A DNA stretch of 64,000 nucleotides from Aegilops tauschii subsp. strangulata. Taxonomy: Eukaryota > Streptophyta > Magnoliopsida > Poales > Poaceae. A program made the position numbers and the translations under genes. Below the pieces are notes generated by a model. The model did no database searches. It saw nothing but the letters and a program-made list of their open reading frames with translations, and was not told the origin of the DNA. Each line of letters starts with the position of its first letter. Position 1 is the first letter of the stretch. The stretch is taken from positions 143,980,885-144,044,884 of the forward strand of contig NC_053038.3 in NCBI RefSeq assembly GCF_002575655.3, read 5' to 3'. Positions 8,361-64,000 of the stretch are shown piece after piece.

Positions 8361-8386
8361 TTGGTGCTCTCATTGAGAGTTGCACT

Positions 8387-24720: not shown

Positions 24721-24890
24721 ATCATCCAGTTTGAGACAACGCGCACACATTAATTGCCAACAAAGTCCTTTTTGAACAGATAGCTGACAGTTAATATCGC
24801 AAGCGATTGTATTATATGAACCGTGTCAAAATTTAACCATACTCGATGGCATGCGTGCAACTGTTTGATTAGACGGGATGAGCACGAGAA

Positions 24891-34899: not shown

Positions 34900-34936
34900 T
34901 GGTATATAGAGCCCTTTCTCTTCACTTCATCTAGCC

Positions 34937-37332: not shown

Positions 37333-37346
37333 AACCTAATGATCAT

Positions 37347-37889
37347 GTGTCCATGTCTCTTAATTCCTTTGATCAACCCTCTGCTGAAAGTGTACAGGAA
37401 AACGCAGAAGAAACAGGCGAAACATCATATGATTTTATGCTGGAGACCGACTCTACGGGAGCAGCCATAGATGATCCGGGCTCTGATCCCCGCGTGGATC
37501 TTGGCGGGCGAATCCCCTCGGGATCAGCGGCGCCAGGCCCAGGCGGATCGCCTGCGGGATCTGCGCTCGCCCCTGACTCGCCACCCAGGCGGGTCGCCCC
37601 TGCGGCGGGGTCAGGTGGGCCTCCCGCACGTGGCCTCGGTCAGGCGCTGGATGCACCGGCTCGGCGGGTCGCTCCCGCGGCGGGGTCAGGTAGCCCCCCC
37701 GCACATGGCCTCGGTCAGGCGCCGTCCCAGCAGGGGGCAGCTGGGCCCTCTGCGCGTGGCCCAGGCGAGGCCGCGCACTCCAGCGCGCCTCTAGCCTCCC
37801 ATCCGGACACGACAAGTGGCAGCGTGGGGGAGGAGGCTGGCTGCGCCAGCGGATCTCAACAGGAGTTAACTATAGTGGATCATCTATGA
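37347..37889 (+). pseudogene. Pro/Gly/Ala-rich linker between copia integrase and RT
   Basis: A GC-rich open frame in a shifted phase relative to integrase. After an acidic start (ENAEETGETSYDFMLE) it becomes Pro/Gly/Ala/Arg-rich and contains a 75-bp tandem duplication with anchors GGCGGGTCGC at 37588 and 37663, giving a 25-residue repeat RRVAPAAGSG...GLGQA. Copia elements have a variable hinge here; one this long and repetitive is unusual. It has no catalytic role. Confidence 0.6.
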
Positions 37890-39225
37890 CTGCTGGATCC
37901 GACGTATTCTCCTCCTCCAATCGCCTTCAACATCAAGTTTCCCGCCCAGCTTTGCCGCCTCCTGAACGCTCCCACACCAGGTCACAGAGTGGCATCGTTA
38001 AACCTAAGCTATACAAAGATGGTTGTGTACGTTGGGGTTCTTTTTGTGCCACAGGTGAACCGCAAAGTGTGAGCGAAGCACTTGGTGAACCATGATGGAA
38101 GGAGGCCATGGATGAGGAATATTCTGCTATGATGATGTACAAAACCCGGCATCTAGTTCCACCAGCCAAGGGGAGGAACACTATTGACTGTAAATGGGTT
38201 TACAAAGTAAAAAAGGAAATATGATGGCACTTTTGACATGTACAAGGCACATCTAGTAGCCAAAGGTTTCAAGCAAAGGTATGGGATTGACTACAAGGTC
38301 ACATTTAGTCCTATAGTAAAGGCTGCTACTATTCGATTAATTCTTTCAGTTGCAGTGTCTAGAAACTGGTGCATTCGACAGCTAGATGTAAAGAACGCGT
38401 TCTTGCATGATGTTCTAGAAGAGGAAGTGTTCATGAGGCAACCTCCTGGGTATGAAAATTTAAAATTTCCACGTCATGCTTGTAAGCTTGATAAGGCACT
38501 GTATGCTGAAACAAGCACCTAGGGCTTGGTACTCGTGCCTGTCATTGAAGTTACAGTCTCTAGGATTCTCTCCCTCTAAGGGTGACACATCATTGTTCTT
38601 TTACCATCATCATGGGATCATTATTTTTATGCTCATTTATGTTGATGATATTGTTGTTACAAGCTCATCATCTAAAGCAGTTGAGGCTCTTCTCAAGGAT
38701 TTGAGCAAGGAGTTTGCCCTTAAGGACTTGGGTAATCAACATTTTTTCCTCGGGATTGAGGTAAAGAACGTGCCAAATGGTATTGTGCTATCACAAGGAA
38801 AGTATGTGCAAGAAATACTTCAGAGGATGGGCATGAAAGGCTGCAAACCGTCGTCTACACCATTACCAACTTCTGAAAAATTGTCTCTTCATGATGGGGA
38901 GGTACTTGGTGTAGAGGACGCCACCAGGTATAGGAGCATTGTAGGAGCTTTACAATATTTGACATTGACTCGGCCAGATATTTCATATTCAGTCAATAAA
39001 GTTTATCAGTTCTTACATGCTCCTACTACTATACATTGGAGACTACAGTAAAGAGGATTCTCAGGTATCTGGACGGAACTAAGGATCATAGACCCAGACT
39101 TGGAAAGTCAGATTCAATGCTAGTAAGTGCTTTTTCAGATGCACATTGGGCAGGTTGTCCTGATGACAGAAGGTCAACAGGAGGTTTTCCAGTATTTCTT
39201 GGCAGTAACTTGATCTCATGGAGTG
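37890..39225 (+). pseudogene. Copia reverse transcriptase and start of RNase H
   Basis: RT runs in at least three frames. The N-terminal part (to 38095) ends at a stop after [38 protein letters not shown] and MRQPPGYE lie in the frame of 38238. From about 38510 the frame changes and carries QAPRAWY, the catalytic YVDDIVV (near 38640) and [13 protein letters not shown]. RNase H begins with [11 protein letters not shown] and breaks after SNLISWS at 39225, where an LTR starts. The remainder must be right of the nest. Frameshifts near 38230, 38510 and 39045 make it non-functional. Confidence 0.85.
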
Positions 39226-39295: not shown

Positions 39296-41000
39296 TGAAG
39301 GAAATATGCCCTAGAGGCAATAATAAAGTATTATATATTTCCTTATATCATGATAAATGTTTATTATTCATGCTAGGATTGTATTAACCGGAAACATAAT
39401 ACATGTGTGAATACATAGACAAACAGAGTGTCACTAGTATGCCTCTACTTGACTAGCTCGTTAATCAAAGATGGTTATGTTTCCGAGCCATAGACATGAG
39501 TTGTCATTTGATTAACGGGATCACCTCATTAGGAGAATGACGTGATTGACTTGACCCATTCAGTTAGCTTAGCACCCGATCGTTTAGTATGTTGCTATTG
39601 CTTTCTTCATGACTTATACATGTTCCTATGACTATGAGATTATGCAACTCCCGTTTACCGGAGGAACACTTTGTGTGCTACCAAACGTCACAACGTAAAT
39701 GGGTGATTATAAAGGTGCTCTACAGGTGTCTCCAAAGGTACTTGTTGGGTTGGCGTATTTCGAGATTAGGATTTGTCACTCCGATTGTCGGAGAGGTATC
39801 TCTGGGCCCACTCGGTAATGCACATCACTATAAGCCTTGCAAGCATTGTGACTAATGAGTTAGTTGCGGGATGATGTATTACGGAACGAGTAAAGAGACT
39901 TGCCGGTAACGAGATTGAACTAGGTATCGAGATACCGACGATCGAATCTCGGGAAAGTAACATACCGATGACAAAGGGAACAACGTATGTTGTTATGCGG
40001 TTTGACCGATAAAGATCTTCGTAGAATATGTGAGAGTCAATATGGGCATCCAGGTCCCGCTATTGGTTATTGACCAGAGAGGTGTCTCGGTCATGTCTAC
40101 ATAGTTCTCGAACCCGTAGGGTCCGCACGCTTAACGTTACGATGACAGTTTTATTATGAGTTTATGTACCGAAGGAGTTCAGAGTCCCGGATGAGATCGG
40201 GGACATGACGAGGAGTCTCGAAATGGCCGAGACGTAAAGATCGATATATTGGACGACTATATTCGGACTTCGGAAAGGTTCCGTGTGATTCGGGTATTTT
40301 TCGGAGTACCGGAGAGTTACGGGAATTCGTATTGGGCCTTAATGGGCTATACGGGAAAGGAGAGAAAGCTCCCAAATGGTGGCCGCACCATGGGCTAGTC
40401 CGGATTGGACTAGGGAGGGGGGGGGGCGCCCCCTTCCTTCTTTCTCCTTCCCCCTTCCCTTCTCCTACTCCCACAAGGAAAGGAGGAGTCCTACTCCCGG
40501 TGGGAGTAGGACTCCCCCCTTTGGCGCGCCTCTCCCCTTGGCCGGCTGCCTCCCCCTTGCTCCTTTATATACGGGGGCAGGGGGGCACCCCATGGAGGCA
40601 AGAATTGATCTATTGATCTCTTAGCCGTGTGCGGTGCCCCCCTCCACCAAATTACACCTCGATAATACCGTTGCGGAGCTTAGGCGAAGCCCTGCGTCGG
40701 TGGAACATCATCATCGTCACCACGCCGTCGTGCTGACGAAACTCTCCCTCAACACTCGGCTGGATCGGAGTTCGAGGGACGTCATCGAGCTGAACGTGTG
40801 CAGAACTCGGAGGTGCCGTGCGTTCGGTACTTGATCGGTCGGATCGTGAAGACGTACGACTACATCAACCGCGTTGTGATAACGCTTCCGCTATCGGTCT
40901 ACGAGGGTACGTGGATAACACTCTCCCCTCTCGTTGCTATGCATCACCATGATCTTGCGTGTGCGTAGGAATTTTTTTGAAATTACTACGTTCCCCAACA
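39296..41000 (+). repeat. 5' LTR of the BARE-like element
   Basis: 1705 bp. Compared with the 3' LTR it lacks 10 bp near 40167 and differs in a C/G-rich run near 40420. TATA region TTTATATA at 40564-40571, directly before CGGGGGCAGGGGGGC. Confidence 0.95.
40564..40571 (+). promoter_or_regulatory. BARE-like LTR TATA box
   Basis: TTTATATA followed by a G-rich leader. Both LTRs carry it (3' copy 47416-47423). Confidence 0.5.
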
Positions 41001-46129: not shown

Positions 46130-47852
46130 TGAAGGAAATATGCCCTAGAGGCAATAATAAAGTATTATATATTTCCTTATATCATGATAAATGTTTATTA
46201 TTCATGCTAGAATTGTATTAACCGGAAACATAATACATGTGTGAATACATAGACAAACAGAGTGTCACTAGTATGCCTCTATTTGACTAGCTCGTTAATC
46301 AAAGATGGTTATGTTTCCGAGCCATAGACATGAGTTGTCATTTGATTAACGGGATCACCTCATTAGGAGAATGACGTGATTGACTTGACCCATTCAGTTA
46401 GCTTAGCACCCGATCGTTTAGTATGTTGCTATTGCTTTCTTCATGACTTATACATGTTCCTATGACTATGAGATTATGCAACTCCCGTTTACCGGAGGAA
46501 CACTTTGTGTGCTACCAAACGTCACAACGTAAATGGGTGATTATAAAGGTGCTCTACAGGTGTCTCCAAAGGTACTTGTTGGGTTGGCGTATTTCGAGAT
46601 TAGGATTTGTCACTCCGATTGTCGGAGAGGTATCTCTGGGCCCACTCGGTAATGCACATCACTATAAGCCTTGCAAGCATTGTGACTAATGAGTTAGTTG
46701 CGGGATGATGTATTACGGAACGAGTAAAGAGACTTGCCGGTAACGAGATTGAACTAGGTATCGAGATACCGACGATCGAATCTCGGGAAAGTAACATACC
46801 GATGACAAAGGGAACAACGTATGTTGTTATGCGGTTTGACCGATAAAGATCTTCGTAGAATATGTGGGAGCCAATATGGGCATCCAGGTCCCGCTATTGG
46901 TTATTGATCGGAGAGGTGTCTCGGTCATGTCTACATAGTTCTCGAACCCATAGGGTCCGCACGCTTAACGTTACGATGACAGTTTTATTATGAGTTTATG
47001 TATGTTGATGTACCGAAGGAGTTCGGAGTCCCAGATGAGATCGGGGACATGACGAGGAGTCTCAAAATGGCCGAGACGTAAGGATCGATATATTGGACGA
47101 CTATATTCGGACTTCGGAAAGGTTCCGAGTGATTCGGGTATTTTTCGGAGTACCAGAGAGTTACGGGAATTCGTATTGGGCCTTAATGGGCCATACGGGA
47201 AAGGAGAGAAAGGTCCCAAAGGGTGGCCGCACCCCTCCCCATGGGCTAGTCCGAATTCGACTAGGGAGGGGGGGCGCCCCCTTCCTTTCTCCTTCCCCCT
47301 TCCCCCTTCCCTTCTCCTACTCCCACAAGGAAATGAAGAGTCCTACTCCCGATGGGAGTAGGACTCCCCCCTTTGGCGCGCCTCTCCCCTTGGCCGGCTG
47401 CCTCCCCCTTGCTTCTTTATATACGGGTGCAGGGGGGCACCCCATGGAGACAACAATTGATCTATTGATCTCTTAGCCGTGTGCGGTGCCCCCCTCCACC
47501 AAATTACACCTCGATAATACCGTTGCGGAGCTTAGGTGAAGCCCTGCGTCGGTGGAACATCATCATCGTCACCACGCCGTCGTGCTGACAAAACTCTCCC
47601 TCAACACTCGGCTGGATCGGAGTTCGAGGGACGTCATCGAGCTGAACGTGTGTAGAACTCGGAGGTGTCGTGCGTTCGGTAGTTGATCGGTCGGATCGTG
47701 AAGACGTATGACTACATCAACCGTGTTGTGATAACGCTTCCGCTGTCGGTCTACGAGGGTACGTGGACAACACTCTCCCCTCTCGTTGCTATGCATCACC
47801 ATGATCTTGCGTGTGCGTAGGAATTTTTTTGAAATTACTACGTTCCCCAACA
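46130..47852 (+). repeat. 3' LTR of the BARE-like element
   Basis: 1723 bp, about 98% identical to 39296-41000. It starts right after AAGTGGGAC and ends before the second AGCGG. Confidence 0.95.
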
Positions 47853-48049: not shown

Positions 48050-51000
48050 TGTAACGCCCCGGATTCAATGCGCTAGGTGTCTTCCAGTTATTCGCCGTTG
48101 TTGCCATGTCATTTGCTTGCGTGTTGCATTTTGCCATGTCATCATCTGCATTTCATCTGCATGTTTTTCAAGACTTGCATCCGGTCCTTCTCCCCGTTGT
48201 CCATTTCGCGATCCGACACTCTCCCTCGCGCCCGTCGCCCCTCTCAGACCTTGTTTCGTGAGTGGAAGAAAAAATTTCTCGGAATGGGCCGCGTTTTGCC
48301 GAGTGGCCTTGGTATATCACCGGTAGACCGCCCGTCAAATTTCGTTCCACATGCAGGTCGTTTGATGCCCCAACGGTTAACCGCGTAGCCCGAAACCCCT
48401 CTCTCTTTGCAGCCCAGCACCACTCCACCACAGCCCACTAACCCAGCAAAACCCCCTCCATGCTCCCCGCTGTTCGATCATGATCGTGTGGGCGAAAACC
48501 GCACCCCGTTTGTACTCCCCTAGCTCCCTCTACCTATAAAAATGCCCCCTCCCCCTCCATTTTCGGGTCCAAACCCTAGCCCCGCTCGACTCGCGCCGCC
48601 GGACATGTCCGCCCCCTCGCCGGACACGTCCGCCCCGCCGCCGCAGCCAACCCCGCGCCTCCCACCACCGCCGGCCCGCAAAGCTTGTCTGGAGCCCGCG
48701 CCGGGCCGCGCCGGGCCCGGATCCGCCCGAGCCGCTCGCAACCGCCTGTCCCGAGCGCTCTACACCCCGCCACCGCACCGCTCGCTGGAGTTGCCTCCGC
48801 CGCCGGCGAGCACCATGTCCAGGTCGTGCCGCCCCTGCCTCTCCTCCCTCCTTCCATCCCGTGCTTCTCCCTCTCCCTCATGATCTCTCTCTCTCCATGA
48901 ACCTCACAGGAACACCATGGCCGCCCCGATCTACGCGCTCGCGCCGCCCCAAGCTGCCCCATCGCCGGGAATGGGTTGCCCCGCGCCCGATCTACCCATT
49001 AACGCCCCCCTGACCCTCGCCGGAGTCCCACGTTGCCCCACTATCGCCGTTGACTTCCGTCGGAGTGGTTCTGTACAAGAGAAGGAGCCAACCCCGACCT
49101 TCCCGTTTTTTTTCGCGGGGTAAAATTCTGCCAAGTCCCTTATTTGGCATATTCTAGTGCCCTGTTCATAATGCCATAACTTCATGTGTGCTGCTCCGAA
49201 TCATGCATATAATATGTCCAAATGTTCATCATGAGATGCGCTTCATTTTGTTCCATTGTGCCATGCTTGTTTGAATCCATCTTGATGCCCTAATCATCGT
49301 TGTAAGAGTTCTATATGCTATTAACTGCTGTCTGTTATCAGAACTTGGTGATTTGTCTTTTTCATTGTATTCTGTGTGTGCATCCTATGAGCATGAGCTC
49401 TACATGTGTTTTGTACTACATCATGCCATCTTTACAGGGGTTCCTGTCTTGTATTTTTTGATCAATGTGGTGATTAGCACAAGCATGCCAAGTAGCCTCC
49501 ATGATGTTGCTGATTTCTGTGACTTAGTTTTTCTGCTAAGTCCATAGCTGTAACATTGTGATGCCACGTAAACCTGCTGTCACCATGAGTTCCATGCATA
49601 ATCTGGAGATGTTCACTAAAGGTGTTTTGTTATACATGTTATGATGTATCCATCCATGCCCTTTGTTGCATTTATAGCCTGCTGTAGCTTGTTGCAAACT
49701 TGCTCTCAAATTGCTAAATAATGTTGCTGTCAGCCTGTTAACATGAAGTTCAGTTTTGCTAGTGATCCATGCACCCTATGAACTTGCTATTTCCATGCTT
49801 AGCTTCATAACTATGCCATCTTAATGTTGGTTGACTTCACATGCCATGAAATGCCTTTTGGTGAGTGGTACAAGCTCACCAACGTGCCTACTTATCGTTG
49901 TTTCTGCCATGTACTGTTATTTTCTCTAAGTCTGAATCTACCATATCATTTGCCATGTTTGCATGGATCCTACCATCTTTTCTGTTGATCTTTGGAATTA
50001 GTTCAGTAAGGGAGTTTTGTTCTTTGTCTTTAGTATTAGCATGCCATGCCTTTCTTTGCTATGATATGTTTCTGTAGCATGTTGTTTGATAGCTCTAAAC
50101 TTAGCAGCCTGATGTTATTTCTGCCATGTCTAGTGATTTTCTGCAGTGTCTGTGAAACTGTTATTATTTGCAATCTTGCCATGTCTTTTTGAGCATGTTG
50201 TAGTGATTTCCGGAGATAGCTCGGTATTTTTGTTTTGTCATGCTTTACCTGTATATCACGTCCATGCCTTTTGTTTTCATGTTGGGGTGCTTTATCATAT
50301 CTTCATCATGCTTGTAAGATGCCTAGTTGCTGTTTTGGACAGATTGTTGTTATATCTTGTTTGGAGTGTATGTGTTGCACCGTTGCTCCGTTTTGAGTGT
50401 GCTCTACATGAAACTTGCTTAGTTTTCCATGTAGTTTCATGTTACCTTGTTGGATCCATGTTTTGGGTGTGTTTGCTTGATGTTTGTATGCATTTTGCAT
50501 CAATGTCATGTTTAACTTGTTTTGCTCATATCTTCTAGGCCGTAACTCCGAATTAAATGAACTTTATATGTAATTTGACTACAATTTCGTGTAGATCATC
50601 TTGGTGCATATTAACTTGCTGTTTAATAACTTGAACATAAGGTTTAATCAGATCTGGAGATATTTCGAAACATGCATATGAGGACTTACCAGATTTGTTA
50701 TATGTTGTTTCCGGCCTCATTTATACTTGCTTTGATGTGTTGCTCTTGTATGCATCATCTCTTGCCATGAGTAGCTTCATGTAGCCTTGCCATGCATCAT
50801 GCTTGATTGAGTAGCATGCCTCGTTCATGTGTGGTTTGTTTACCATGTTGTGTGCTTCTTCTCGATAATTCCTGTTTCGTTGCGACCGTGAGGATTCATT
50901 CGTCTTCGTGGCTTCATCTTCTTCATGGATTCGTTCTTCTTCCTAGCGGGATTTCAGGCAAGATGACCGTCACCTTGTATCTCATTACTATCATTGCTAT

Positions 51001-52218
51001 GCTAGTTGCTTCGTTCTATCGCTATGCTGCGCTACCTATCGCTTGCTCTTCAATCCTCCCAAATTGCCATGTCAGCCTCTAACCTTTGTCACCCTTCCTA
51101 GCAAACCGTTGCTTGGCTATGTTACCGCTTTTGCTCAGCCCCTCTTATAGCGTTGCTAGTTGCAGGTGAAGATGAAGTTTGTTCCTTGCTGGAACATGGA
51201 TATCATGGACTTTGTTGGGATATCATAATATCTCTTATATTATTAATGCATCTATATACTTGGTAAAGGGTGGAAGGCTCGGCCTTATGCCTGGTGTTTT
51301 GTTCCACTCTTGCCGCCCTAGTTTCCATCATACCGGTGTTATGTTCCTTGATTTTGCGTTCCTAACGCGGTTGGGTTGTTATGGGGACCCCTTGACAGTT
51401 CGCTTTGAATAAAACTCCTCCAGCAAGGCCCAACCTTGGTTTTACATTTGCCTCACCTAACCTTTTTCCTTTGGGTTTCCGGAGCCCGAGAGTCATCTTT
51501 ATTTACCACCTCGGGCCAGTGCTCCTTCGAGTGTTGGTCCAACCTGTCAGCCGCCGGTGGCCACCAGGGGCAACTCTGGGCTGGCCTACCAGAAGTTTGG
51601 ACAATCCAGTGTGCCCTGAGAACGAGATATGTGCAGCTCCTATCAGGATTTGTCGGCACATTCGGCCAGCTTTGCTGGTCTTGTTTTACCATTGTCGAAA
51701 TGTCTTGTAAACCGGGATTCCGAGACTGATCGGGTCTTCCCGGGAGAAGGAATATCCTTCGTTGATCGTGAGAGCTTATAATGGGCTAAGTTGGGACACC
51801 CCTGCAGGGTATAAACTTTCGAGAGCCGTGCCCGTGGTTATGTGGCAGATGGGAATTTGTTAATGTCCGGTTGTAGAGAACTTGACACTTGACTTAATTA
51901 AAATGCATCAACCGCGTGTTTAACCGTGATGGTTTCTTTTCGGCGGAGTCCGGGAAGTGAACACGGTTCTCGGGTTATGTTTGACGTAAGTAGGAGTTCA
52001 GGATCACTTCTTGATCATTGCTAGTTTCACGACCGTTCCGTTGCTTCTCTTCTCGCTCTTATTTGCATATGTTAGCCACCATACTTTGCTTAGTCGCTGC
52101 TGCAACCTCACCACTTTACCCCTTCCTTACCCATTAAGCTTTGCTAGTCTTGATACCCATGGTAATGTGATTGCTGAGTCCTCGTGGCTCACAGATTACT
52201 ACAACACCGGTTGCAGGT
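48050..52218 (+). mobile_element. Long LTR of a second chromovirus
   Basis: TGTAACGCCCCGG opens it. The sequence follows the LTR at 1830-4964 block for block, including the TATA region (48535-48540), the leader, the TGCCATG-rich zone and the segment near 51060-51540. It then continues a further 680 bp that the first copy has lost. It stops at 52218, where the minus-strand Sirevirus begins. Since neither pol nor a polypurine tract precedes it, it is a 5' LTR or a solo LTR; the sequence right of the Sirevirus would tell. The two LTRs are relatives, not a pair from one element. Confidence 0.8.
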
Positions 52219-52946
52219 AGGATCGATATAGTTGACTAGAGGGGGGGTGAATAGGCAACTAACAATTTTTAGCTTTTCTTTACCAAATTAAACTTTGCAT
52301 CAAAATAGGTTGTCTAGATATGCAACTAAGTGAACAACCTATATGATGCAATGACAACAAGCACGCAAGCAAGTAAGAGATGTAACCCGAGTAAACTTGC
52401 GAAAGTAAAGGAACGAGATAACCAAGAGTGGAGCCGGTGAAGACGGGGATGTGTTACCGAAGTTCCTTCCTTTTGAAGGGAAATACCTCTCCGTTGGAGG
52501 GGTGTGGAGGCACAATGCTCCCCAAGAAGCCACTAGGGCCACCGTATTCTCCTCACGCCCTCACACAATGCGAGATGCCGTGATTCCACTATTGGTGCCC
52601 TTGAAGGCGGCGACCGGACCTTTACAAACAAGGTTGGGCAATCTCCACAACTTAATTGGAGGCTCCCAACGACACCACAAAGCTTCACCACAATGGACTA
52701 TGGCTCCACGGTGACCTCAACCGTCTAGGGTGCTCAAACACCCAAGAGTAACAAGATCCGCTAGGGATAAGTGGGGGGAATCAAATTTCTCTTGGTGGAA
52801 GTGTAGATCGTGGCCTTCTCAACCAATCCCGAGCAAATCAACAAGTTTGTTTGGCTAGGGAGAGAGATCGGGCGAAAATGGAGCTTGGAGCAACAATGGA
52901 GCTTTTTGGGGGAAAGAGGTGAGTCATCTTTGGGGAAGAAGACCCC

Positions 52947-52954
52947 TTTATATA
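52947..52954 (-). promoter_or_regulatory. Sirevirus LTR TATA box
   Basis: TATATAAA on the minus strand, just downstream (in element orientation) of the palindrome cluster. The same is found in the other LTR at 63603-63610. The palindromes therefore sit where an upstream promoter element would be. Confidence 0.55.
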
Positions 52955-52998
52955 GTGGGGGGAACAAACCAACCGTTACCCCACTTCTGCCCCGAAGA

Positions 52999-53490
52999 GA
53001 GCGGTACTACCGCTGTGCCAGCGGTACTACCGCTTGCCACTATAAGTGGTACTACCGCTCCTCATCGCGGTACTACCGCTTGGCCCACAGCGGTACTACC
53101 GCAGTATGAGGGCGGTACTACCGCATACGAGCGGTACTACGGCCCCCCACAGCTGCGGCCAGTACCGTAAAACCCGACACGAAAAAGGAGCCCTCGAATT
53201 GAGGCGGTACTAGCACGAGACCACCGCGGTACTACGGCTTGGGGCTACTAGCGGTACTACTGCTCTGGAGCGGTACTACGGCTCCCAGAGCGGTACTACC
53301 GCTTGTGGCACCCAAGCGGTACTACTGCTCCGTGCCGTGGTACTACCGCTGGGACCAGAGTGAGCACACAATTGGGGGCTACTAGCGGTACTACTGCTCT
53401 GGGCGGTACTACCGCTCCAGAGCGGTACTACCGCTTGTAGCACCCAAGCGGTACTACCGCTCTGGCCCGCGGTACTACCGCTGGGACCAG
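52999..53490. repeat. Cluster of near-palindrome AGCGGTACTACCGCT in the 3' LTR
   Basis: About 19 copies, exact or with one to three changes, spaced mostly 15-25 bp, some longer. Each is a hairpin with 7-bp arms around one central base; that base is C on the plus strand throughout the cluster. Copy number varies between the two LTRs. Confidence 0.9.
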
Positions 53491-53808
53491 AGAGGGCACA
53501 TTGAGAAGAGAAACAAGCCCATCATCGAAACAGAAAGGCTCGGAGGGAGAGGCAAAGGAAGTGTACGTGATGATTCCGCCCTAGCCTTTCCAAAACAGAC
53601 CCCCTCTTGATAGTACGGTGATCCCTATGAAACTAGTCCACCAAACTAATCCGAAAGGACTACACCGTCTTCGCTTCAAGCTCCGAGGGGAGGGAATCGT
53701 CTCGTGCCAAAAGGATGAATCTCTGAAAAACACTCAATGCACACGATTAGTTCGCAAAAGCATTGTCATCAATCACCAAAACATCTTAGGGATAAATATG
53801 CCCTTACA

Positions 53809-54425
53809 ATCTCCCCCTTTTTGGTGGATTGATGACAATACGGGATTTGCACAACTGGGAAAAGACAAAGGACATAAGCAAACCCCAAATCTCTAAAATA
53901 TAGACGGGCTCCCCCTAGATGTGTGTCATCAAGATAAGTGCTTTGCACTGCACGACACACATACTAGGATCAACACTCCCCCTGTATTTTAGAGACCAAC
54001 AACCTAAGCGAGATACAAGATAGCAGGATATATAACATAATGAAGCATATAACTCATGAGATATCAAATGACTAGAGACAAAGATAAAGATATGATAAGG
54101 ATAGGGTAGCATATGTCTCACACCATATGACTTGAACTAAAGTCTCACAGAACACAAAACCAAGCAAAGCACAAGGTAGCACACAACGAAAGCACAAAGG
54201 CAAAGACACACTCGCAACACAACGACGCAAATCCCTAAACTCTCTCCCCCTTTGGCATCGAGACACCAAAAGGGGCAAAGAGCTAACCTACGGCTCCAGG
54301 TGAGAGCATGCTGAGGATCTCGAACATCAGGACTCTGCGTGATCATCTGCACTGCCGTCCTCGCCCGGAAACTGCTCGGCATCTGAATCAGTCCACGGAC
54401 AGTGCTGCTGGATCCACTCCTCCTC
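53809..54425 (-). other. Sirevirus untranslated region with multiple polypurine-like tracts
   Basis: Minus-strand GGGGGAG tracts lie at about 53811-53820 (the functional-looking one at the LTR border), 53909-53916, 53975-53983 and 54244-54250, and one more lies upstream near 56841. Multiple polypurine tracts are reported for Sireviruses. No ORF was recognised. Confidence 0.65.
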
Positions 54426-56072
54426 CTATGTAATCTGACCATCAGAGCCGCTGGTGACGGTCGCACCCATCTGATGCATAAGCTCCTTATGACGTCCCCT
54501 TGCCTTCTTCTCAGCCACATGAGTCAAGTACTGACCATGAGACTCCATGCAGAACAGCTTCTTCATCTTGCGTTTGAGCTTCTTTGCCCAAGAGGGCTCT
54601 GCCACAGAAGGCTCTGTCCCAGGAGGCACATAATCCTCATCATCATCACCGGCATCAGCCTCGTCCTCGGTCTCCATGGCAGCAGCAGAAGATGGAGCTC
54701 CAGATCTACCCCAATTATCCTTCTTCCTCAGACGCTTGATCTCATGAGAGACCAACTCTCCAGTTTCCAGCTGCTCCTCAGGATAGGTATGTCTCCAGGC
54801 CCTCTCAATAAGCAACATAATGAACGGACCGTAAATTGGGCACTTGCGCTCAAAAACAGCCGCCAGAAGCTCAGACCACATGACATGAGAGATGTCCAGG
54901 GACTCGCCGGTGTTTGCTTCCTTCTCACGCTGGCAGAAGAGAAGCATGTCCACAAGATAAGAGTGTACCATGTCCAGATTCCCAATACGAGGGAAGAGAG
55001 TCTCGCGGAAGATACGGTGAAGGATGTCCAGATAGGCAGACAACTCATAGGTTTCCTTCCTGGTCTCAGGGTTGACCTTCCGAGTACAGTAGGGCCAGAG
55101 GGCTTGCTTGTGAGTGGAGGTAACATTTTGGTGAGGACGAAAACCGACTGGAGTCTCGAGCCCTTGATCTTCCACCTCAAGCAGCCCCATGAAGGCCTGC
55201 CACTTGACAGCTAGCACCTTCCCATTAGTCATCCAAGTCAGAGTCCTGTCTGCATCAGTTCCTAGGTGAACAGTGGCAAAGAACTGTGCCAGCAAATCTG
55301 CATCAAAGTCCTTGTTGAACTGCATGATCTTGAGAATGTTCAACTGAGAGCACATCTGAAGGGCATCACCAAAGTACTCAGGGTCCTTCTCCATAACATC
55401 CGTGTTGATGGAATGAACATTGACAAAGAGGTTCTTCTTAGCCTTGATCACATCAAAGTATGTGGCATACTGAAACCGGTTCCAGAACGGGCGATTGACA
55501 AGGTTGTGTTCTTGGTCTTCCTCATAGGGGTTGCACCGACGCCTGTCCCAGAATTCCTTGCTAGACATCTCAGTCACTTTCTTGCCACTTGGCTTCGGTC
55601 GGCTGGCAATCTTCTTCTTGCGAGGAGGATTAGCACTTGAGGAAGCACCCCCTGCCAGCGGTGGAGCACTGGAAGAACCACCTGCAGTCTCAGATGAGCG
55701 GTACCGCTTTGACGTTGAACGTCCGGGGTTGACACGGCGGACTTGCTGCTCAGGATGTTCATCACCTGGAACCAAACACACGAACACAAGAAACAACCAG
55801 GAGAAACGATCAAAACCAAATAAACACAACACAAACAGATCAACATGTGGTAGGAAACGATGGAACTGGGCATCCGGCGGTAGTACCGTCCTGTACTGCG
55901 GCAGTACCGCACAAGCGGTAGTACCGTGCCCTACAAGCGGTAGTACCGCTCTGGCGGTAGTACCGCGCAATATGGGCGGTAGTACCGCCCGAGACGGGGC
56001 ACGGAGGATCCCTACTGCCGTGGTCAGATCCGGCACTACCGGGGATGCCAAATTCAAAAATAAACCTACCAA
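54426..56072 (-). CDS. Extra ORF downstream of pol in the Sirevirus (putative plant transposon protein-like)
   Basis: 548 open codons from 56072, in the place where Sireviruses may carry an env-like ORF. Residues 1-75 are translated palindrome repeat and residues 78-102 are hydrophobic. From residue 103 it looks like a real protein: a basic region (111-167), NRPFWNRFQYATYFDVI (194-208), a conserved-looking core with AQFFATVHL and WMTNGKVLAVKWQAFMGLLE (262-299), then a helical part to 455, an acidic patch (467-480) and a Lys-rich segment (497-506). The core spacing resembles the 'putative plant transposon protein' domain seen in Athila/Ogre-type elements. TTCCAG/GTGATG at 55765 is a good splice acceptor, so residues 1-102 may be intron or leader. 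It has no clear env features. Function unknown. Confidence 0.65.
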   Translation of the reverse strand: MVGLFLNLASPVVPDLTTAVGILRAPSRAVLPPILRGTTARAVLPLVGHGTTACAVLPQYRTVLPPDAQFHRFLPHVDLFVLCLFGFDRFSWLFLVFVCLVPGDEHPEQQVRRVNPGRSTSKRYRSSETAGGSSSAPPLAGGASSSANPPRKKKIASRPKPSGKKVTEMSSKEFWDRRRCNPYEEDQEHNLVNRPFWNRFQYATYFDVIKAKKNLFVNVHSINTDVMEKDPEYFGDALQMCSQLNILKIMQFNKDFDADLLAQFFATVHLGTDADRTLTWMTNGKVLAVKWQAFMGLLEVEDQGLETPVGFRPHQNVTSTHKQALWPYCTRKVNPETRKETYELSAYLDILHRIFRETLFPRIGNLDMVHSYLVDMLLFCQREKEANTGESLDISHVMWSELLAAVFERKCPIYGPFIMLLIERAWRHTYPEEQLETGELVSHEIKRLRKKDNWGRSGAPSSAAAMETEDEADAGDDDEDYVPPGTEPSVAEPSWAKKLKRKMKKLFCMESHGQYLTHVAEKKARGRHKELMHQMGATVTSGSDGQIT

Positions 56073-56540
56073 ACATCAGTCCAAAGAGTCTAGTTGCCTT
56101 CTCCAACCTACTCAAGCCTAGATTTGGCCAAAAATCTAGAGATGCAACTACTACTGCCCCTAAAACGCGAGATCTGAAAACTAGACAAGAAGAGAAAAGG
56201 AACGGGGGCAATACCAGCATCCATGGCAAGAGGACGAGGTGGGGATCGACTCCACCGAAGGGAATGGAGAGGGACGGTCCGGAGACGGAGGGCCGCCGGA
56301 GCCCTCCCGCGGCGAGATGGCGCTGGAGAGAGAGGAAGAGGAACCAGGGGACGAAGCAAATGGGTATGGGGTGGAGGAAACCACCCCTGCCCATGACTTA
56401 ACCCCCTGGCCCCGCCCCTCAGCGGTAGTACCGTGGTGATGGGCGGTAGTACCGCTTAGCCACATAAGCGGTAGTACCGCTCCGTGGAGCGGTAGTACCG
56501 CTCCAGCGGTAGTACCGCGCCTTCACAACGGTAGTACCGC
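55870..56540. repeat. Second near-palindrome cluster, opposite orientation
   Basis: About 12 copies of AGCGGTAGTACCGCT and variants at 55877-55990 and 56420-56540. On the plus strand the central base is G, so this cluster is inverted relative to those in the LTRs. It lies between pol and the extra ORF, partly inside the latter's 5' end. Confidence 0.88.
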
Positions 56541-56905
56541 CCAGCGCAACTCAAACCAGACTCAACACATATGGTGCAAAACGAAAGACGGGAAACAACG
56601 GCAAGAAGACCAACAAGAGCACTAGCAAGAGAAAAAGAATCACACGCCTCTATACGAGAGGGCGGTGGCCGAGGCCACCTATGTTTGAGTCACTTGGCAT
56701 GGCACCGCGAAGAATTATCCTTGGGCCCATGACCAAAGCTCGTCTTTGAAGCACAAGTACCATCAAAAATGGCTAATGTGAAAGAGTGAGATCAGTTTAT
56801 GCATTGTGGGGGGAGGGAAAGTTCATTGAGAGAACAACACTCCCCCTACGTCCATGCCTACACCTAGACAAGAATGCACAATGAATGTGAGGGGTGTGCA
56901 AAGGT
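56073..56905 (-). other. Spacer between Sirevirus pol and the extra ORF
   Basis: Holds the outer half of the palindrome cluster. Near 56230-56390 a GC-rich minus-strand tract resembles a plant 5' untranslated leader (pyrimidine runs, CTCTCTCCAGCGCC). A polypurine-like tract lies near 56841. A promoter or first exon for the extra ORF could be here; I cannot prove it. Confidence 0.4.
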
Positions 56906-59122
56906 TCAAACCACATTGCTCGAATCAATGATATTTAGCTCATGCCTTAACTCGCGAAATCTTGCTTCATCCAATGGCTTCGTGAAAATATCTGCAAGGT
57001 TATCATGAGTGTTGACATAGTTGAGCTCGATCTCCCCTCGCCTAATATGATCCCGGATGAAGTGATACCGAATCTCAATATGCTTTGTCTTGAAGTGTTG
57101 CACCGGGTTGAGAGAAATCTTGATAGCACTTTCATTGTCACACCAAAGAGGCACTTTGTCACAAATGACACCGTAATCCTTTAAAGTTTGCCTCATCCAT
57201 AAGAGTTGTGCAGAACAACTTCCGGCCGCCACATACTCCGCTTCGGTGGACGAGAGAGACACACAACTTTGCTTTTTAGAAGACCAACTTACCAAAGAGC
57301 AACCAAGAAATTGGCACCCTCCGGAAGTGGACTTCCTATCCACTTTGTCTCCCACCCAATCGGAGTCCAAATAACCTACAAGCTTGAAGTTTGCTCCTCT
57401 TGGGTACCATAGGCCAAAGTTTGGGGTATGAGCCAAATATCGAAAGATTCGCTTGACCGCCACAAAGTGGCTTTCCTTAGGTGCGGCTTGAAACCGTGCA
57501 CATATTCCCACACTCAACATGATATCCGGTCTAGATGCACAAAGGTAAAGCAAGGATCCAATCATGGAGCGATATACCTTTTGATCCACCGCTTTACCAT
57601 TGGGATCAATGTCAAGTTGGCACTTGGTGGGCATTGGAGTGGAAGCCGGCTTGACATCACTTAGCTTGAATCTCTTTAGCATGTCTTGAGTGTATTTGGC
57701 TTGGTTGATGAAGGTTCCTTCTCTTCTTTGTTTGATTTCAAATCCGAGAAAGAACTTCAACTCTCCCATCATAGACATCTTAAACTTTGAGGTCATGAGA
57801 GCGGCAAATTCTTCATTGAAGGCTTTGTTAGGGGAACCAAAAATAATATCATCAACATATAGTTGGCACACAAACAACTCCCCTTTGACCTTCTTAGGAA
57901 AAAGAGTGGGGTCGATTTTCCCGATTTCGAATCCACGATCTTGTGACAACTCCGTAAGATGCTCATACCACGCACGTGGGGCTTGTTTAAGGCCATAGAG
58001 CGCCTTATGGAGTTGATACACATGATCGGGGGAATAGGGATCTTCGAACCCGGGGGGTTGTTTGACATATACCAACTCATTTATCGGACCATTAAGAAAA
58101 GCACTTTTCACATCCATTTGTTGCAATGTGAAATTATGATGAGAAGCATAGGCAATCAACAAATGAATAGATTCAAGGCGAGCGGCGGGGGCAAAGGTTT
58201 CACCGTAGTCGATACCCTCGACTTGGGAGTAGCCTTGTGCCACCAAACGAGCCTTGTTGCGAACAATGATTCCATGAGCGTCTTGCTTGTTCTTGAATAT
58301 CCACTTGGTTCCAATGACATTATGATTTCCGGTTGGCCTTGGCACTAACTTCCACACTTGGTTATGTTCGAAGTTGTTGAGTTCTTCATGCATGGCGTTG
58401 AGCCAATCCGGGTCCTCGAGCGCTTCATAAACATTTTGGGGTTCGACACAAGAAACAAACGCATGATGTTCACAATAGTTTGCTAATTGTCTACGAGTGC
58501 TTACCCCCTTTCTTAGGCTTCCAACCACATTCTCCATGAGATGACCTTTAGTGGTGAGCTTGGAAGCGATCTTAGTGGCACGACGCTCCAATTCCTCCTC
58601 GGAAGTGAAGTGAGGAGGGGTTACTTGATCATCTTGAGTCTCGTCTTGAGCTTGTTCTTGATCTTGAACTTGCTCGAGGGGAGGAACTTGACCTTGGGCA
58701 TCATTTGGTGGATCACCACCATCTTGAGGTTGATCTTGCCCTTGATCTTGTTCATGAGGTTGAGGGCCTTCACTTTGTTCTTCGAAAGCGTGTGGGTCCT
58801 GGGTTGGTGATGGCTCCACTTGAGTGGAGCATTGTCCTTCTCCTTCGGCCACAAGGGGTTCCTCAATGGGCAGGATATATCCAACACCCATTCTTCTTAT
58901 GGCTTGGGGAGGAATTTCATCACCTACATCACAAGTACCACTTTTCTCCACTTGGGAGCCGTTATTCTCATCAAACTGCATGTTACACGTCTCCTCAATA
59001 AGTCCCGTGGACTTATTGAGAACACGGTAAGCATGGGAGTTTGTAGCATAACCAACAAATATGCCCTCATGAGCTCTAGTCTCAAATTTAGACAAACAAC
59101 ACCTTTCTTGAGAATGAAACAC
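56906..59122 (-). pseudogene. Sirevirus reverse transcriptase-RNase H
   Basis: 738 open codons. The N-terminal part is the end of integrase ([20 protein letters not shown]), followed by a Gln/Asp/Glu-rich hinge (about residues 100-175). RT has [56 protein letters not shown] and the catalytic YVDDIIFGS near 57850. RNase H has [20 protein letters not shown], the WCDNESA motif and [20 protein letters not shown], ending in [18 protein letters not shown]. All key catalytic residues appear present. It is separated from integrase by a frameshift around 59110, so it cannot be made as part of the normal polyprotein. Confidence 0.9.
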
Positions 59123-60246
59123 TTACACCCGAACACCCGAAAGTACTTGAGGTTGGGCTTGTTACCGGTGAGTATCTCATATGGAGTCTTGTTCAAGCCT
59201 TTGCGGAGATAGAGCCGATTTGAAGCATGACACGCGGTGTTGATGGCTTCGGCCCAAAAGTTGTATGGAGACTTGAACTCCGCCATCATGGTCCTTGCCG
59301 CATCCATCAACGTCCGGTTCTTCCTCTCCGCAACACCATTTTGTTGAGGGGTGTAAGGTGCGGAATATTGATGCTTGATCCCCTCATCACTAAGAAACTC
59401 ATCCAGGGTGTAGTTCTTGAACTCGGTGCCGTTGTCACTTCTTATAGTCAAGATCTTTGCATTGTGTTGACGTTGGGCTTCATTTGCAAAGTCAATGACT
59501 GTTTGTTGGGTCTCACTCTTCCTCTTGAAAAAATACACCCAAGTGTATCTAGAATAGTCATCCACAATTACCAAGCAATATTTTCTACCTCCAAGACTAT
59601 CAAAGGATGGAGGCCCAAAGAGATCCAAATGAAGGAGCTCCAAGGTCCTCTTCGAGTAAATGAGAGTCGTGGGAGGGTGAGCCTTCTCATGAAGCTTTCC
59701 TTCGATACAAGCACTTCAAGCATGATCTTTAGCAAAACTAACGTTCGTTAGTCCACGGACATGGTCCCCCTTGAGAAGACTTTGCAAAGATCTCATATTG
59801 ACATGGGCTAAACGGCGATGCCAAAGCCATCCCACGTCAACTTTAGCCATTAGGCATTACGCGGTCTTAGTGGGTCGCTCCGAAAAGTTAATCACATAGA
59901 GACCGTTCTCGACATGCCCAACAAAGGCTACTTTAAGAGTCTTGCTCCACAAGGGGGCCACGGTATCAATATCAAAGAAAGTGGCAAAGCCCATGATAGC
60001 AAGTTGATGAACGGAAAGTAAATTGTATGCAAGGGACTCAACTAGCATGACCTTCTCGATCGTGAGATCATGAGAAATGACAACTTTGCCGAGTCCCAAT
60101 ACCTTAGAAGACGAGGCATCACCCCACTCGACATTGGTGGGCATAGATGGAATCTTGTGCACATCCACCACCAAGTCCTTGCTTCCGGTCATATGATTTG
60201 TAGCTCCACTATCGAGCAACCATGATCCCCCACCGGAAGCAAACAC
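58924..60246 (-). pseudogene. Sirevirus protease, GAG-pre-integrase and integrase core
   Basis: One frame from 60246: GGGSWLLDSGATNHMTGS is the aspartic protease active site, and ESLAYNLLSVHQLAIMGF leads into pre-integrase. In-frame stops at 59859-59857 (TAA) and 59718-59716 (TGA) break it. Integrase core follows from 59643: LLHLDLFGPP, IRSDNGTEFKNY and PQQNGVAERKNR supply the D, D and E positions; [20 protein letters not shown] precedes the frameshift near 59110. The upstream gag part is in another phase. Confidence 0.88.
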
Positions 60247-60256
60247 CTACAAGAGA

Positions 60257-61102
60257 TCAATGCTTGGTTTTAGGTACCCATTTTGTAATGGGTCCTTTGA
60301 TGTTAGTAACAAGGGTCTTAGGAACCCAAATGGACCATTCAATATACTCATGAGGAGAACCAACAAATTTGGCATAAACATGCCCATCACTTGCATGACA
60401 TAACACATAAGAAGGATTAAAGTCGCCGGCTTTGTTGGATGGGCTGGAATTGCCCTTCTTGACACCGTCACCCTTCGCATTGTTCTTCTTCTCCTTGGAA
60501 GTACCCTCTCCCTCTTTCACAAAAGTTTGCTTGAGAGGGGGAGGTCGTTTGGTCTTGTCATTCTTCTTCTTGTTCTTGGGCTTGGGAGCGAACCCAATCC
60601 CCTCCTTGGCTACAACTTCCTTTTGGTTTCTCAAAAGGTCGTTGAGGTTCTTCTCACCTTGTATGCATGACACAAGGCCTTTCTCAAGTTGCTCCTTCAA
60701 CTTAGCATTCTCCTCAACAAGATGCACATGCTCACAACAAGGGTTAGTAGCATTTGCATTATCAATTAACACCATATGAGGAAAAGTGGCTTTCTCCTTA
60801 GTTAGCATTACTTGGAGTTGATCATGAGACTCCTTGAGGCTAGCATGAGCACCCTTCAAGACCTTGTGAGCCTTGTCGAGAATGTCAAACTCCTCTTTAA
60901 GTCTAGCAAGATCAACCCCAAGTTTTGCCTTCTCGGAGTTTGGCACACGAGACACAACAAGAGCATGATCAAGATCTTTCTTTAACGTAGCATGATCATC
61001 GTTGTATGACTCCTCAAGAGCCAAACGAAGACCACGCTCTTCGTCAAGAGCATTGGAAAGATCCGAAATCTCATCGGCATAGTCACGACTATGCCCCTCC
61101 AT
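60257..61102 (-). pseudogene. Sirevirus gag C-terminal extension with coiled coil
   Basis: 281 open codons. The first 150 residues are charged and heptad-like (LALEESYNDDHATLKKDLDH, LKEEFDILDKAHKVLKGAHA), typical of the long Sirevirus gag that can contact host proteins. A Lys-rich stretch (KPKNKKKNDKTKRPPP) comes next. The end IKGPITKWVPKTKH is the conserved lead-in to protease. The phase differs from the main gag by a small indel near 61115 and from protease by another near 60250. Confidence 0.85.
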
Positions 61103-61112
61103 CTTAGAGATG

Positions 61113-62816
61113 CTATCTTCGTGAGCCGATCATGTCATTGGCTTCACCAAGTTGTTCCAAGAGAGCAACGAAGTGCTTCTTGGATTTACCCTTGAGTTTA
61201 CCCATAAAGATCTCAAACTCATTTTCCTCCACATTTGTCCCCTCATGTTCATCAATGCTATCCGTCGAAGAAGGATGATTAATGATGGTAGTTTTGATGT
61301 TGGAGGTTACCTTATTGGTGGCTTTAGCCATGAGGCACTTGGCGGTGATGTTCTCATTGGGTGAGTCGAAGAGAGACACCCGTGGAGTCTTCGCAATGGC
61401 AACGGAGGCCATGGCAACCGACTCATCATCTTCATCATCGTCATCATCCTCATTGTACTCTTCTTGTACCACCAACGCCTTGGGAGGAGTCTTCCTGGTG
61501 AAGTTGCTCTTGTTGGGGAACGACTTGGCCTTGTCTTTTCTAATGAGCTTGCCACCATTGTCTTCCCTCTTCTCGTAAGGGCACTCCGCAACAAAGTGGC
61601 TCACATTGCCACAATTGAAGAAAGTCCTCATCCGTTGCTTGCCCTTTGCGCCACTTGAATTGCTCTTGTTGAAGTTTGGCCTTGTGTTCTTCTTGCTCCA
61701 AAATTGCCTTGAAGCAAGAGCCATGTGTTCATGATAGGCATACTTCGTATCTTCGAGGTTGCCCTCCTCTTCTTCCTCTTCATCCTCTTCCTCCATACTA
61801 ACCTTGGCCTTTAAAGCAAGGTTGGGCTTCTTTACTCTTTGAGAACAAAGAACCGCATTGTCAGCGGTCTTGTCCAAGATGCTGATAGCAACAAATTCAT
61901 CCAACACCTCACTTGATGATAAGGTGTGGAAGTCCGGCCTTTGACGAATTACGGAGGACATGGCTTTGTGGTAGGGCATCATTGCCTTGAGGAATTTGCG
62001 CTTGATCCAATTGTCATCCGTGTCCTTACTTCCATGATCTCGGAGAGAGACCGCGAGTTTGGTTACTCTCCGGAAAAGCTCACGAGGTTCTTCATCTTCT
62101 TTCATTGCAAACTCGTCGGCTTCATCTTGCACCACTTCATAGTTGGAGCGTTGAATGCTTGCGCTTCCCCGATAGAGGGAAACAACTTGTAGCCAAGCAT
62201 CTTTGGCCACGGTGTAAGGCCGGAGATGGGGAAGATCTTCGGGTGGGATTGCTTCTTGGATGATGAAGAGAGCATTCTCATTGAATTGATGATCCACAAC
62301 TTCTCTAGGAGTGAAGTTACTTCGGTCATGCGGATAAAAACCCTCTTCAATGATTCTCCAAAGGTTAGTGTTCACATGATTTTAATGACGCTTAAAACGA
62401 TAGACCCAAGAATCAAAATCTACATTCTTCTCAATCTTAGGGGCCGGGCCGGCATGATTCAAATGAGTGGAAGGGAGCGGTCCACCATAGATAGGTGGAG
62501 GTTCCACATGGGCAAAGATGCCGGTCCCATTTTTATCACTAGAACAAGGAGCTTTCTCGCTAGAAGCTTCCCCCTTGTCGGAGGTAGCATCCGTCACCTT
62601 GTTAGCGGGATCACCCACTTTCAACGGTGCGGTGGTAAGTTGAAGCCCTTCTAAGAATTTATTCAACATGCTTTCGACCTTGGTCGTCATGGAGGTTTTC
62701 AATGTGTCCAACGCCACATTGAATTCCTCACAAGAGACCGCGGTTCCCCCATCTCCCGTAGACGAGACTAGATTCTCACCGGAGTGCTCCTCCACACCGT
62801 CTACGACGTCAACCAT
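61113..62816 (-). pseudogene. gag: Sirevirus gag, main part
   Basis: One frame from ATG 62816 to 61113, with a single in-frame TAA at 62384-62382 splitting it into 144 and about 420 codons. The capsid-like part includes NTNLWRIIEEGFYPHD, LFRRVTKLAVSLRDHGSKD and FLKAMMPYHKAMSSVIRQRP. A Glu-rich run lies near 61770. The zinc knuckle (about 61620-61580) reads FFNCGNVSHFVAEC: the first Cys of the CCHC set is replaced by Phe. An Asp-rich run (EEYNEDDDDDEDDES) is typical of this lineage. The start is 37 bp after the primer site, consistent with a short leader. Confidence 0.88.
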
Positions 62817-62852: not shown

Positions 62853-62865
62853 GGCTCTGATACCA
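62853..62865 (-). other. Sirevirus primer-binding site
   Basis: The minus strand reads TGGTATCAGAGCC, complementary to initiator-Met tRNA, 6 bp inside the end of the shared LTR sequence. Confidence 0.9.
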
Positions 62866-62871
62866 ATTGAA

Positions 62872-64000
62872 AGGATCGATATAGTTGACTAGAGGGGGGG
62901 GGTGAATAGGCAACTAACAATTTTTAGCTTTTCTTTACCAAATTAAACTTTGCATCAAAATAGGTTGTCTAGATATGCAACTAAGTGAACAACCTATATG
63001 ATGCAATGACAACAAGCACGCAAGCAAGTAAGAGATAGAACCCGAGTAAACTTGCGAAAGTAAAGGAACGAGATAACCAAGAGTGGAGCCGGTGAAGACG
63101 AGGATGTGTTACCGAAGTTCCTTCCTTTTGAAGGAAAGTACGTCTCCGTTGGAGCGGTGTGGAGGCACAATGCTCCCCAAGAAGCCACTAGGGCCACCAT
63201 ATTCTCCTCACGCCCTCACACAATGCGAGATGCCGTGATTCCACTATTGGTGCCCTTGAAGGCGGCGACCGGACCTTTACAAACAAGGTTGGGGCAATCT
63301 CCACAACTTAATTGGAGGCTCCCAATGACAGCACAAAGCTTCACCACAATGGACTATGGCTCCGTGGTGACCTCAACCGTCTAGGGTGCTCAAACACCCA
63401 AGAGTAACAAGATCCTCTAGGGATAAGTGGGGGGAATCAAATTTCTCTTGGTGGAAGTGTAGATCGTGGCCTTCTCAACCAATCCCGAGCAAATCAACAA
63501 GTTTGATTGGCTAGGGAGAGAGATCGGGCAAAAATGGAGCTTGGAGCAACAATGGAGCTTTTTGGGGGAAAGAGGTGAGTCAACTTTGGGGAAGAAGACC
63601 CCTTTATATAGTGGGGGAACAAACCAACCGTTACCCCACTTCTGCCCCGAAGAGAGCGGTACTACCGTTGTGCCAGCGGTACTACCGCTTGCCACCATAA
63701 GCGGTACTACCGCGGTGGGAGGGCGGTACTACCGCATACGAGCGGTACTACGGCCCCCACAGCCGCGACCAGTACCGTAAAACCCGACACGAAAAAGGAG
63801 CCCTCGAATCGAGGCGGTACTAGCACGAGACCACCGCGGTACTACGGCTTGGGGCTACTAGCGGTACTACTGCTCTGGAGCGGTACTACCGCTCCCAGAG
63901 CGGTACTACCGCTTGTGGCACCCAAGCGGTACTACCGCTACGTCCCGCGGTACTACCGCTGGGACCAGAGTGAGCACACAAATGGGGGCTACTAGCGGTA
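62872..64000 (-). repeat. 5' LTR of the Sirevirus, cut by the window end
   Basis: Matches 52219-53393 at about 98%, with an extra G in a G-run, and a gap of about 45 bp within the palindrome cluster near 63700. TATA box at 63603-63610. Near-palindromes begin at about 63655 and continue to 64000. About 415 bp of the LTR and the outer target duplication lie beyond the window. Confidence 0.9.

Follow-up and report, generated by a model that had tools for sequence, protein, structure and literature searches.

An extra open reading frame in an Inga-like Sirevirus

The question raised by this locus is what kind of protein is encoded by a long open reading frame (ORF) that follows the damaged gag-pol region of a plant retrotransposon, and whether that protein is an envelope. 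The locus lies in a 64-kb window (the whole stretch of DNA analysed, 64,000 nucleotides of Aegilops tauschii subsp. strangulata contig NC_053038.3), whose minus strand carries a stop-free run of 548 codons from position 56072 to 54426. A first-pass annotation, which gave no strand, had reported this run at 54426-56072 and placed it where some Sireviruses carry an env-like ORF; both statements were borne out, the run being located in sense orientation between pol and the 3' long terminal repeat (LTR). In 60 simulated first-order Markov windows of 64 kb the longest run without a stop had a mean length of 189 codons and a maximum of 254, which ruled out a chance ORF, and frame 1 of the plus strand contains 12 stops over the same stretch. 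The ORF corresponds to the 3' extra ORF on the sense strand ('env-like', eORF-3'F) of a Sirevirus that is Inga-like. Gene and element are both of an already described kind, and the copy is slightly broken. The best explanation overall, to which we give a probability of about 45%, is that this Inga-like env-like ORF would be expressed from a spliced RNA and would encode a VANC-like, box-binding anti-silencing protein.

The assignment of the element, a Ty1/copia retrotransposon, was based on its domains and on its repeated motifs. RVT_2 (PF07727, E 2.7e-71) and integrase rve (PF00665, E 1.4e-17) matched clearly and identify a copia-type element, the gag match to PF14223 being weak (22.9 bits vs the 27-bit cut-off). 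The 5' LTR ends in ..TTCA and is followed by the primer binding site TGGTATCAGAGCC, which we take to be of the tRNA-Met type. Five polypurine tract (PPT) octamers AGGGGGAG were found on the element strand 3' of pol (56847 to 53818), the last one starting 10 bp before the 3' LTR; four more copies in the window comprise one on the opposite strand within gag-pol (60536) and three outside the element. Several PPT octamers in the linker, with the last one near the 3' LTR, have been described as a Sirevirus signature (PMC2829016), and palindromic CGG-CCG boxes were present both in the LTRs and upstream of ENV, as in Sireviruses. The box consensus, AGCGGTASTACCGCT (AGCGGTA(C/G)TACCGCT), is the one listed in Table 3 of PMC2829016 for Inga, an ENV-bearing Sirevirus whose size is given as 12.02 kb in Table 2. 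The element described here agrees with Inga in size (~12.2 kb), in the sense ORF between pol and the 3' LTR and in the boxes upstream of it, but differs in LTR length (~1.59 kb vs 1.43 kb) and in the linker PPT copies, one before and four after the ORF as compared with three and two in Inga; because of these PPT positions it is termed 'Inga-like'. The lineage name 'Maximus-type' used in the first-pass annotation is correct for the lineage, as REXdb equates SIRE with Maximus (PMC6317226).

At 52221 the 3' LTR lacks the final few bases of the 5' LTR and abuts other sequence directly. The LTR pair differs at 30 of 1124 aligned sites (~2.7%), which at a substitution rate of 1.3e-8 per site per year dates the insertion to about one million years ago. 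On the minus strand, the gag ORF starts at 62816 and the reverse transcriptase ORF extends from 59122 to 56906, and gag-pol carries the earlier reported three in-frame stops (62384, 59859 and 59718) and three changes of frame from one ORF piece to the next. One of these frame changes may be native, because a +1 gag/pol frameshift has been reported for many Sireviruses (PMC2829016). The openness of the extra ORF had been presented as special beside this damage, but up to six lesions in ~5.9 kb of gag-pol and one in the ~1.44 kb env-like region amount to about the same rate, and an 'unusually well preserved' ORF was thereby ruled out.

Extent of the coding region and its relatives

Only part of the 548-codon run appears to be coding. 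The first 102 residues are the translation of a repeat-box cluster and a pyrimidine (T-rich) tract; judged from the letters, these ~102 codons do not look like protein and are apparently noncoding, and relatives align from residue 103 (GDEHPEQ, window position 55765) onward. At the other end, the frame of P0001 (the window's own protein; all other P-numbers denote relatives) continues beyond its TAG to a TGA at 54329, with 33 codons lost, the stop's own included. This copy is not intact, because P0003, P0005 and P0006 read on past the position of the TAG and the frame stays open to 54329. The statement that 548 codons remain open is correct in that the run is stop-free, but it counts in a non-protein-like start and stops short of the true end.

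Searches for relatives returned 10 and 51 sequences at E <=0.01, and a profile search 335 at E <=1, the best 120 of which were listed, all at E <1e-53. Organism-named relatives among the matches listed numbered 11, ten from barley and one from Aegilops geniculata, that is, all from Triticeae, and no relatives were found in viral contigs or prokaryote genome contigs. A tree of 32 longer members contained several well-supported subgroups, with the window protein as sister to P0002. A gene newly gained by this lineage, as had been suggested, is disfavoured both by relatives in several supported subgroups and by the ENV published for Inga; lineage-specific gain is improbable because the element is Inga-like by its box, and PMC2829016 places both Inga and Maximus among ENV-bearing elements. 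For SIRE elements in general, 74% are reported to have a 3' sense ORF, these ORFs falling into 19 groups that share little or no similarity with one another (PMC6317226).

It could be argued that the ORF is a decaying, unselected passenger which stayed open by chance in a young insertion, as might be expected with LTRs only ~2.7% diverged (~1 million years) and with one disabling stop already there. Relatives at 35-54% identity to P0003, however, keep the ORF across 300-514 amino acids, whereas neutral mutation of the ORF to 48% identity introduced a mean of 11 stops and at least five in each of 100 runs. The open relatives are to be taken as supporting evidence only, as database proteins are ORFs by selection, and replacement chemistry was not uniformly conservative, P0007 falling under the neutral mean. 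We regard an unselected passenger as very improbable, and the sequence comparisons make constraint on the ORF likely.

Candidate splice sites and the route of expression

The T-rich tract in front of the conserved region ends in CCAG/GTGATG (slash, splice point), providing a candidate acceptor at 55766/55765. An acceptor of the form YAG/G requires that the residue before the conserved glycine can be encoded by an NYA codon, and this was so in all 22 rows compared, the residue being P (12), S (5), T (2), L, I or A. These rows comprise 21 of 33 pattern matches (the remaining 12 had the pattern in another part of the protein) and P0052; in P0007 and P0075 the junction was placed one glycine earlier than the pattern had placed it. 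Because the rows are related to one another, and because NYA codons would fit 60% of the upstream residues in any case, they support the acceptor but do not prove it. On an ad hoc score it ranked sixth among 169 nearby AG sites.

A candidate donor (CCG/GTGAGA) was located at 62779, where it scored highest of 34 GT sites between the LTR end and 600 nt beyond the gag ATG; with the splice-site weights applied, five of the 546 internal GT sites, this one among them, reach that score. Its phase matches that of the acceptor, a match expected by chance in one case out of three. As the acceptor coincides with the onset of conservation, and as the best-scoring early donor is situated in gag in the right phase, we infer that the env-like protein would be made from spliced element RNA; with the donor 37 nt into gag, the gag start codon could serve both proteins. 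In avian retroviruses, env is likewise translated from a spliced RNA that uses the gag start codon. The likeness consists in a predicted donor just inside gag and an acceptor before the 3' gene, but the product predicted here is devoid of membrane features and the junction is itself a prediction. In plant elements, splicing has been reported or predicted for BAGY2 and Athila, and stop suppression for SIRE1 (PMC2829016, PMC7264820).

Alternatively, an internal promoter might serve for expression of the same protein, with transcription from the GC-rich segment 56400-56160 driven by the box cluster at 56423-56539 and any intron lying within the linker. Such a promoter has been proposed in print for Sireviruses (PMC2829016), and would agree with CpG observed/expected ratios of 1.02 and 1.18 in the two box clusters (0.46-0.67 in other internal stretches, except 0.86 at 55766-55880), with a CT-rich leader containing other acceptor-like sites at 56322, 56180 and 56173, and with an ATG in GCCATGG context at 56224. 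On the other hand, TATAA is absent from the element strand between 56560 and 55766, and the sole phase-matched donor scoring above 0 after this ATG is weak (0.06 vs 3.56 for the gag site). We consider this route possible, with the odds somewhat against it; it is an alternative way of expression, and its odds overlap with those of the best explanation given above. The minus-strand segment 56160-56400 between the box clusters is a GC-/CT-rich leader that may represent an internal promoter or a 5' exon.

The envelope question

A genuine envelope-like or movement-type protein, anchored in membranes and crossing these or plasmodesmata, would use the hydrophobic stretch before residue 103 as its signal or anchor. 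The location 3' of pol in sense orientation is as expected of such a gene, hydrophobic windows precede the conserved start in P0001, P0056 and P0107, and in the literature, where ORFs of this type are termed env-like, transmembrane and coiled-coil predictions have been reported for them (PMC3414828, PMC7264820). The hydrophobic stretch, however, corresponds to the translated T-rich tract ending CCAG/G, and the frame is not kept upstream of the junction, where P0052 aligns in two different frames. Behind the junction, P0001 has no hydrophobic segment (hydropathy maximum 1.16 vs 1.95 before it), so that the mature protein would lack a membrane anchor provided that splicing does occur at the predicted acceptor, and the core is predicted to be globular with basic clusters. 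A true envelope is disfavoured by this lack of a membrane segment after the predicted acceptor; in line with the first-pass annotation, the env-like protein is probably not an envelope, and a membrane-anchored product appears quite unlikely. The role of env-like genes in plant retrotransposons has itself been called unproven and controversial (PMC3414828, PMC2829016). Even if the function proposed below is wrong, the splice reading warns that the predicted 'transmembrane' starts of such ORFs may be translated introns.

Fold of the core domain

Structure prediction, suggested in the first-pass annotation as a check, gave a model with a globular core for the relative P0003; the AlphaFold2 model of the window protein (11 sequences) was poor (pLDDT 40) and was not used. 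In the top row of a VIA comparison the core of the P0003 model, a predicted structure, aligned with residues 283-561 of VANC21 over 216 residues. This comparison was a second look at Foldseek-ranked chains (588 aligned), in which all rows except the first cover the C-terminal part only; other folds could be missed because VIA looked only at chains ranked by Foldseek. Foldseek itself, run with the model against the PDB and viral models, gave nothing at E <0.001. PDB sequence searches with P0001 revealed two weak C-terminal matches to PHD finger protein 12 (E 0.1 and 0.4), and those with A5, A4, A3 and P0062 revealed no match. A VANC structure is mentioned as unpublished work in a meeting report of September 2025 (PMC12859917).

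The resemblance of the core to PF20167 (Transposase_32), noted earlier from its helical, charged segments, was upheld only weakly. Of all families matched, PF20167 alone recurs on the core, with eight of the 64 relatives searched, and its alignments are in one register in the six of these eight with positions seen; the best match (E 0.0014) reached 19 bits, far under the 45-bit gathering cut-off, and P0001 gave no match. An Athila domain and an env-like ORF had been treated as contrasting identities, which is false because in sunflower Athila PF20167 is carried by a 3' extra ORF of a potentially env-like group (PMC11728184). The gene is 3' in the element in both cases, but Athila is Ty3/gypsy and the present element Ty1/copia. 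One could accordingly envisage a plant-transposon protein of the Athila-like PF20167 kind, either structural or DNA-binding, that acts in replication or integration of the element and not in anti-silencing. The recurrence of this one family and the presence of such transposon domains in extra ORFs of Athila and Retand (PMC11728184, PMC7264820) speak for it; the scores are sub-threshold, however, and PF20167 says nothing on the role of a protein. We consider a replicative or integrative role doubtful. The core itself probably has a plant-transposon fold.

Repeat boxes and a possible anti-silencing role

The palindromic box CGGTA(C/G)TACCG was found in 29 exact copies, ten in the 3' LTR, eight in the visible 5' LTR and 11 in two pre-coding clusters. 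No exact copy was present elsewhere in the 64-kb window, and none appeared in 30 simulations. When one mismatch was allowed the number rose to 42; all of these lay within the element, and one (56031) was in the linker but in neither cluster.

In the explanation favoured here, the env-like protein would be a soluble, probably nuclear DNA-binding protein of VANC-like fold rather than an envelope. Its most likely targets would be the element's own boxes, which form clusters in the LTRs and immediately before the gene; by binding there it would shield the LTR promoter and the gene against silencing by the host, in the way that VANC proteins act for VANDAL transposons. VANC21 is reported to bind a 9-base motif, often tandemly repeated, in noncoding regions of its own transposon and to remove methylation there, and the VANC6 motif differs from that of VANC21 (PMC5735166, PMC10398659). 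The box sequence of Sireviruses differs between families, and the authors describing it could not name a common binder. Among 13 box-bearing Sireviruses, the nine with ENV also have linker boxes (77 of 79 upstream of ENV) and the four without ENV have none there (PMC2829016). In sunflower SIRE, a strong drop of CG methylation over the element centre fits the proposal (PMC12844716). The likeness to the VANC/VANDAL system thus lies in the aligned model core and in clustered short motifs within the element's own noncoding regions; the differences are that the present element is a retrotransposon and VANDAL a Mutator-like DNA transposon, that DUF1985 was not detected here by Pfam, and that the boxes are palindromes with a one-base centre whereas VANC motifs are not palindromic.

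Several observations weigh against an anti-silencing protein of this kind. The centre of sunflower SIRE keeps high CHG methylation, unlike under VANC21, and its drop in CG methylation may have other causes (PMC12844716); the four ENV-less Sireviruses keep boxes in their LTRs, and seven of 16 elements treated as ENV-bearing from the layout of Table 2, Maximus included, are without boxes in Table 3 (PMC2829016). Neither VANC motif is present in this element, DUF1985 and DUF287 are absent from the 24 families matched by 64 members at E <=10, and the CpGs of the boxes were not significantly protected from LTR decay (2/24 vs 8/42, p 0.31).

The env-like protein may be an anti-silencing factor, with the Sirevirus boxes as the sequence that it reads. 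If its core is a VANC-like DNA reader, the env-like gene and the unexplained Sirevirus boxes would explain each other, and a major group of grass retrotransposons would carry its own anti-silencing system. The wider notion that grass Sirevirus 'envelopes' of this kind form a retrotransposon branch of a plant-wide anti-silencing family with VANC fold and DNA-binding activity, co-evolving with their own boxes and expressed by removal of gag-pol as an intron behind the gag start codon, is on present evidence less likely than not. In the portions of the open-licence literature covered, no prior statement was found of a VANC link to env-like ORFs or of the gag-donor route, which leaves their absence unproven.

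Coordinates of the features of the element

Table 1. Features of the Inga-like element, in window positions.
Feature	Position	Strand	Basis or remark
5' LTR (part; extends beyond window end)	62868..64000	-	direct repeat of 52219-53390, 93.4% identity, 1175 alignment columns
Primer binding site TGGTATCAGAGCC	62853..62865	-	read from sequence
gag-pol remains	56907..62816	-	3 stops and 3 frame changes
Candidate splice donor CCG/GTGAGA, 37 nt into gag, phase 1 (predicted)	62774..62782	-	scored GT sites
Sirevirus PPT octamer AGGGGGAG, between pol and env-like ORF	56840..56847	-	octamer per PMC2829016
Repeat-box (RM) cluster 1, six CGGTACTACCG	56423..56539	-	exact matches
Repeat-box (RM) cluster 2, five CGGTACTACCG, within first 102 codons of reported ORF	55878..55987	-	exact matches
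T-rich tract with ..GGTTCCAG at its end, intron side of a candidate splice acceptor (predicted)	55766..55845	-	preceding residue NYA-codable in 22/22 rows
Conserved env-like coding region (GDEHPEQ... to TGA at 54329)	54327..55765	-	homology of relatives begins here
Globular core, equivalent to model residues 11-273 aligning with VANC21 (predicted)	54750..55538	-	P0003 model; VIA alignment; coordinates via alignment A4
Long basic C-terminal helix (KKLKRKMKKLFC...) (predicted)	54471..54593	-	helix 333-373 of P0003 model, mapped via alignment A4
In-frame TAG truncating this copy	54426..54428	-	P0003, P0005 and P0006 read through here
Four PPT octamers AGGGGGAG	53811..54251	-	first bases 54251, 53983, 53916, 53818; last adjoins 3' LTR
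3' LTR (TGTAAGGG..., last few bases missing)	52221..53808	-	10 exact repeat boxes

Other elements in the window

An antisense ORF at 14942-15469 (minus strand) gave a clear match to PF04195 (Transposase_28, E 1.4e-14). It is surrounded by 481-bp direct repeats at 7880-8360 and 16030-16510 (95%), and this region (7880-16510) also contains a Ty3-type gag ORF at 9944-10408 on the plus strand; the PF04195 ORF probably belongs to a gypsy element as an extra ORF in antisense, comparable to the ones that have been reviewed for Retand and Grande. Domains of gag, Pol_BBD and RVT_2 mark a second copia element at 34910-39048 (plus strand), near LTR-like direct repeats of 1.7 kb (39296-41000 and 46130-47852, 96.5% identity). 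At the left edge, gypsy integrase ORFs (rve, SH3_Tf2-1) were found at 147-1790 (plus strand), and three stretches within 1964-4964 match 48135-51545 at 70-86%, suggesting a related second gypsy copy. Finally, about three tandem copies of a ~0.5-kb unit, 78% alike, occupy 23130-24733.
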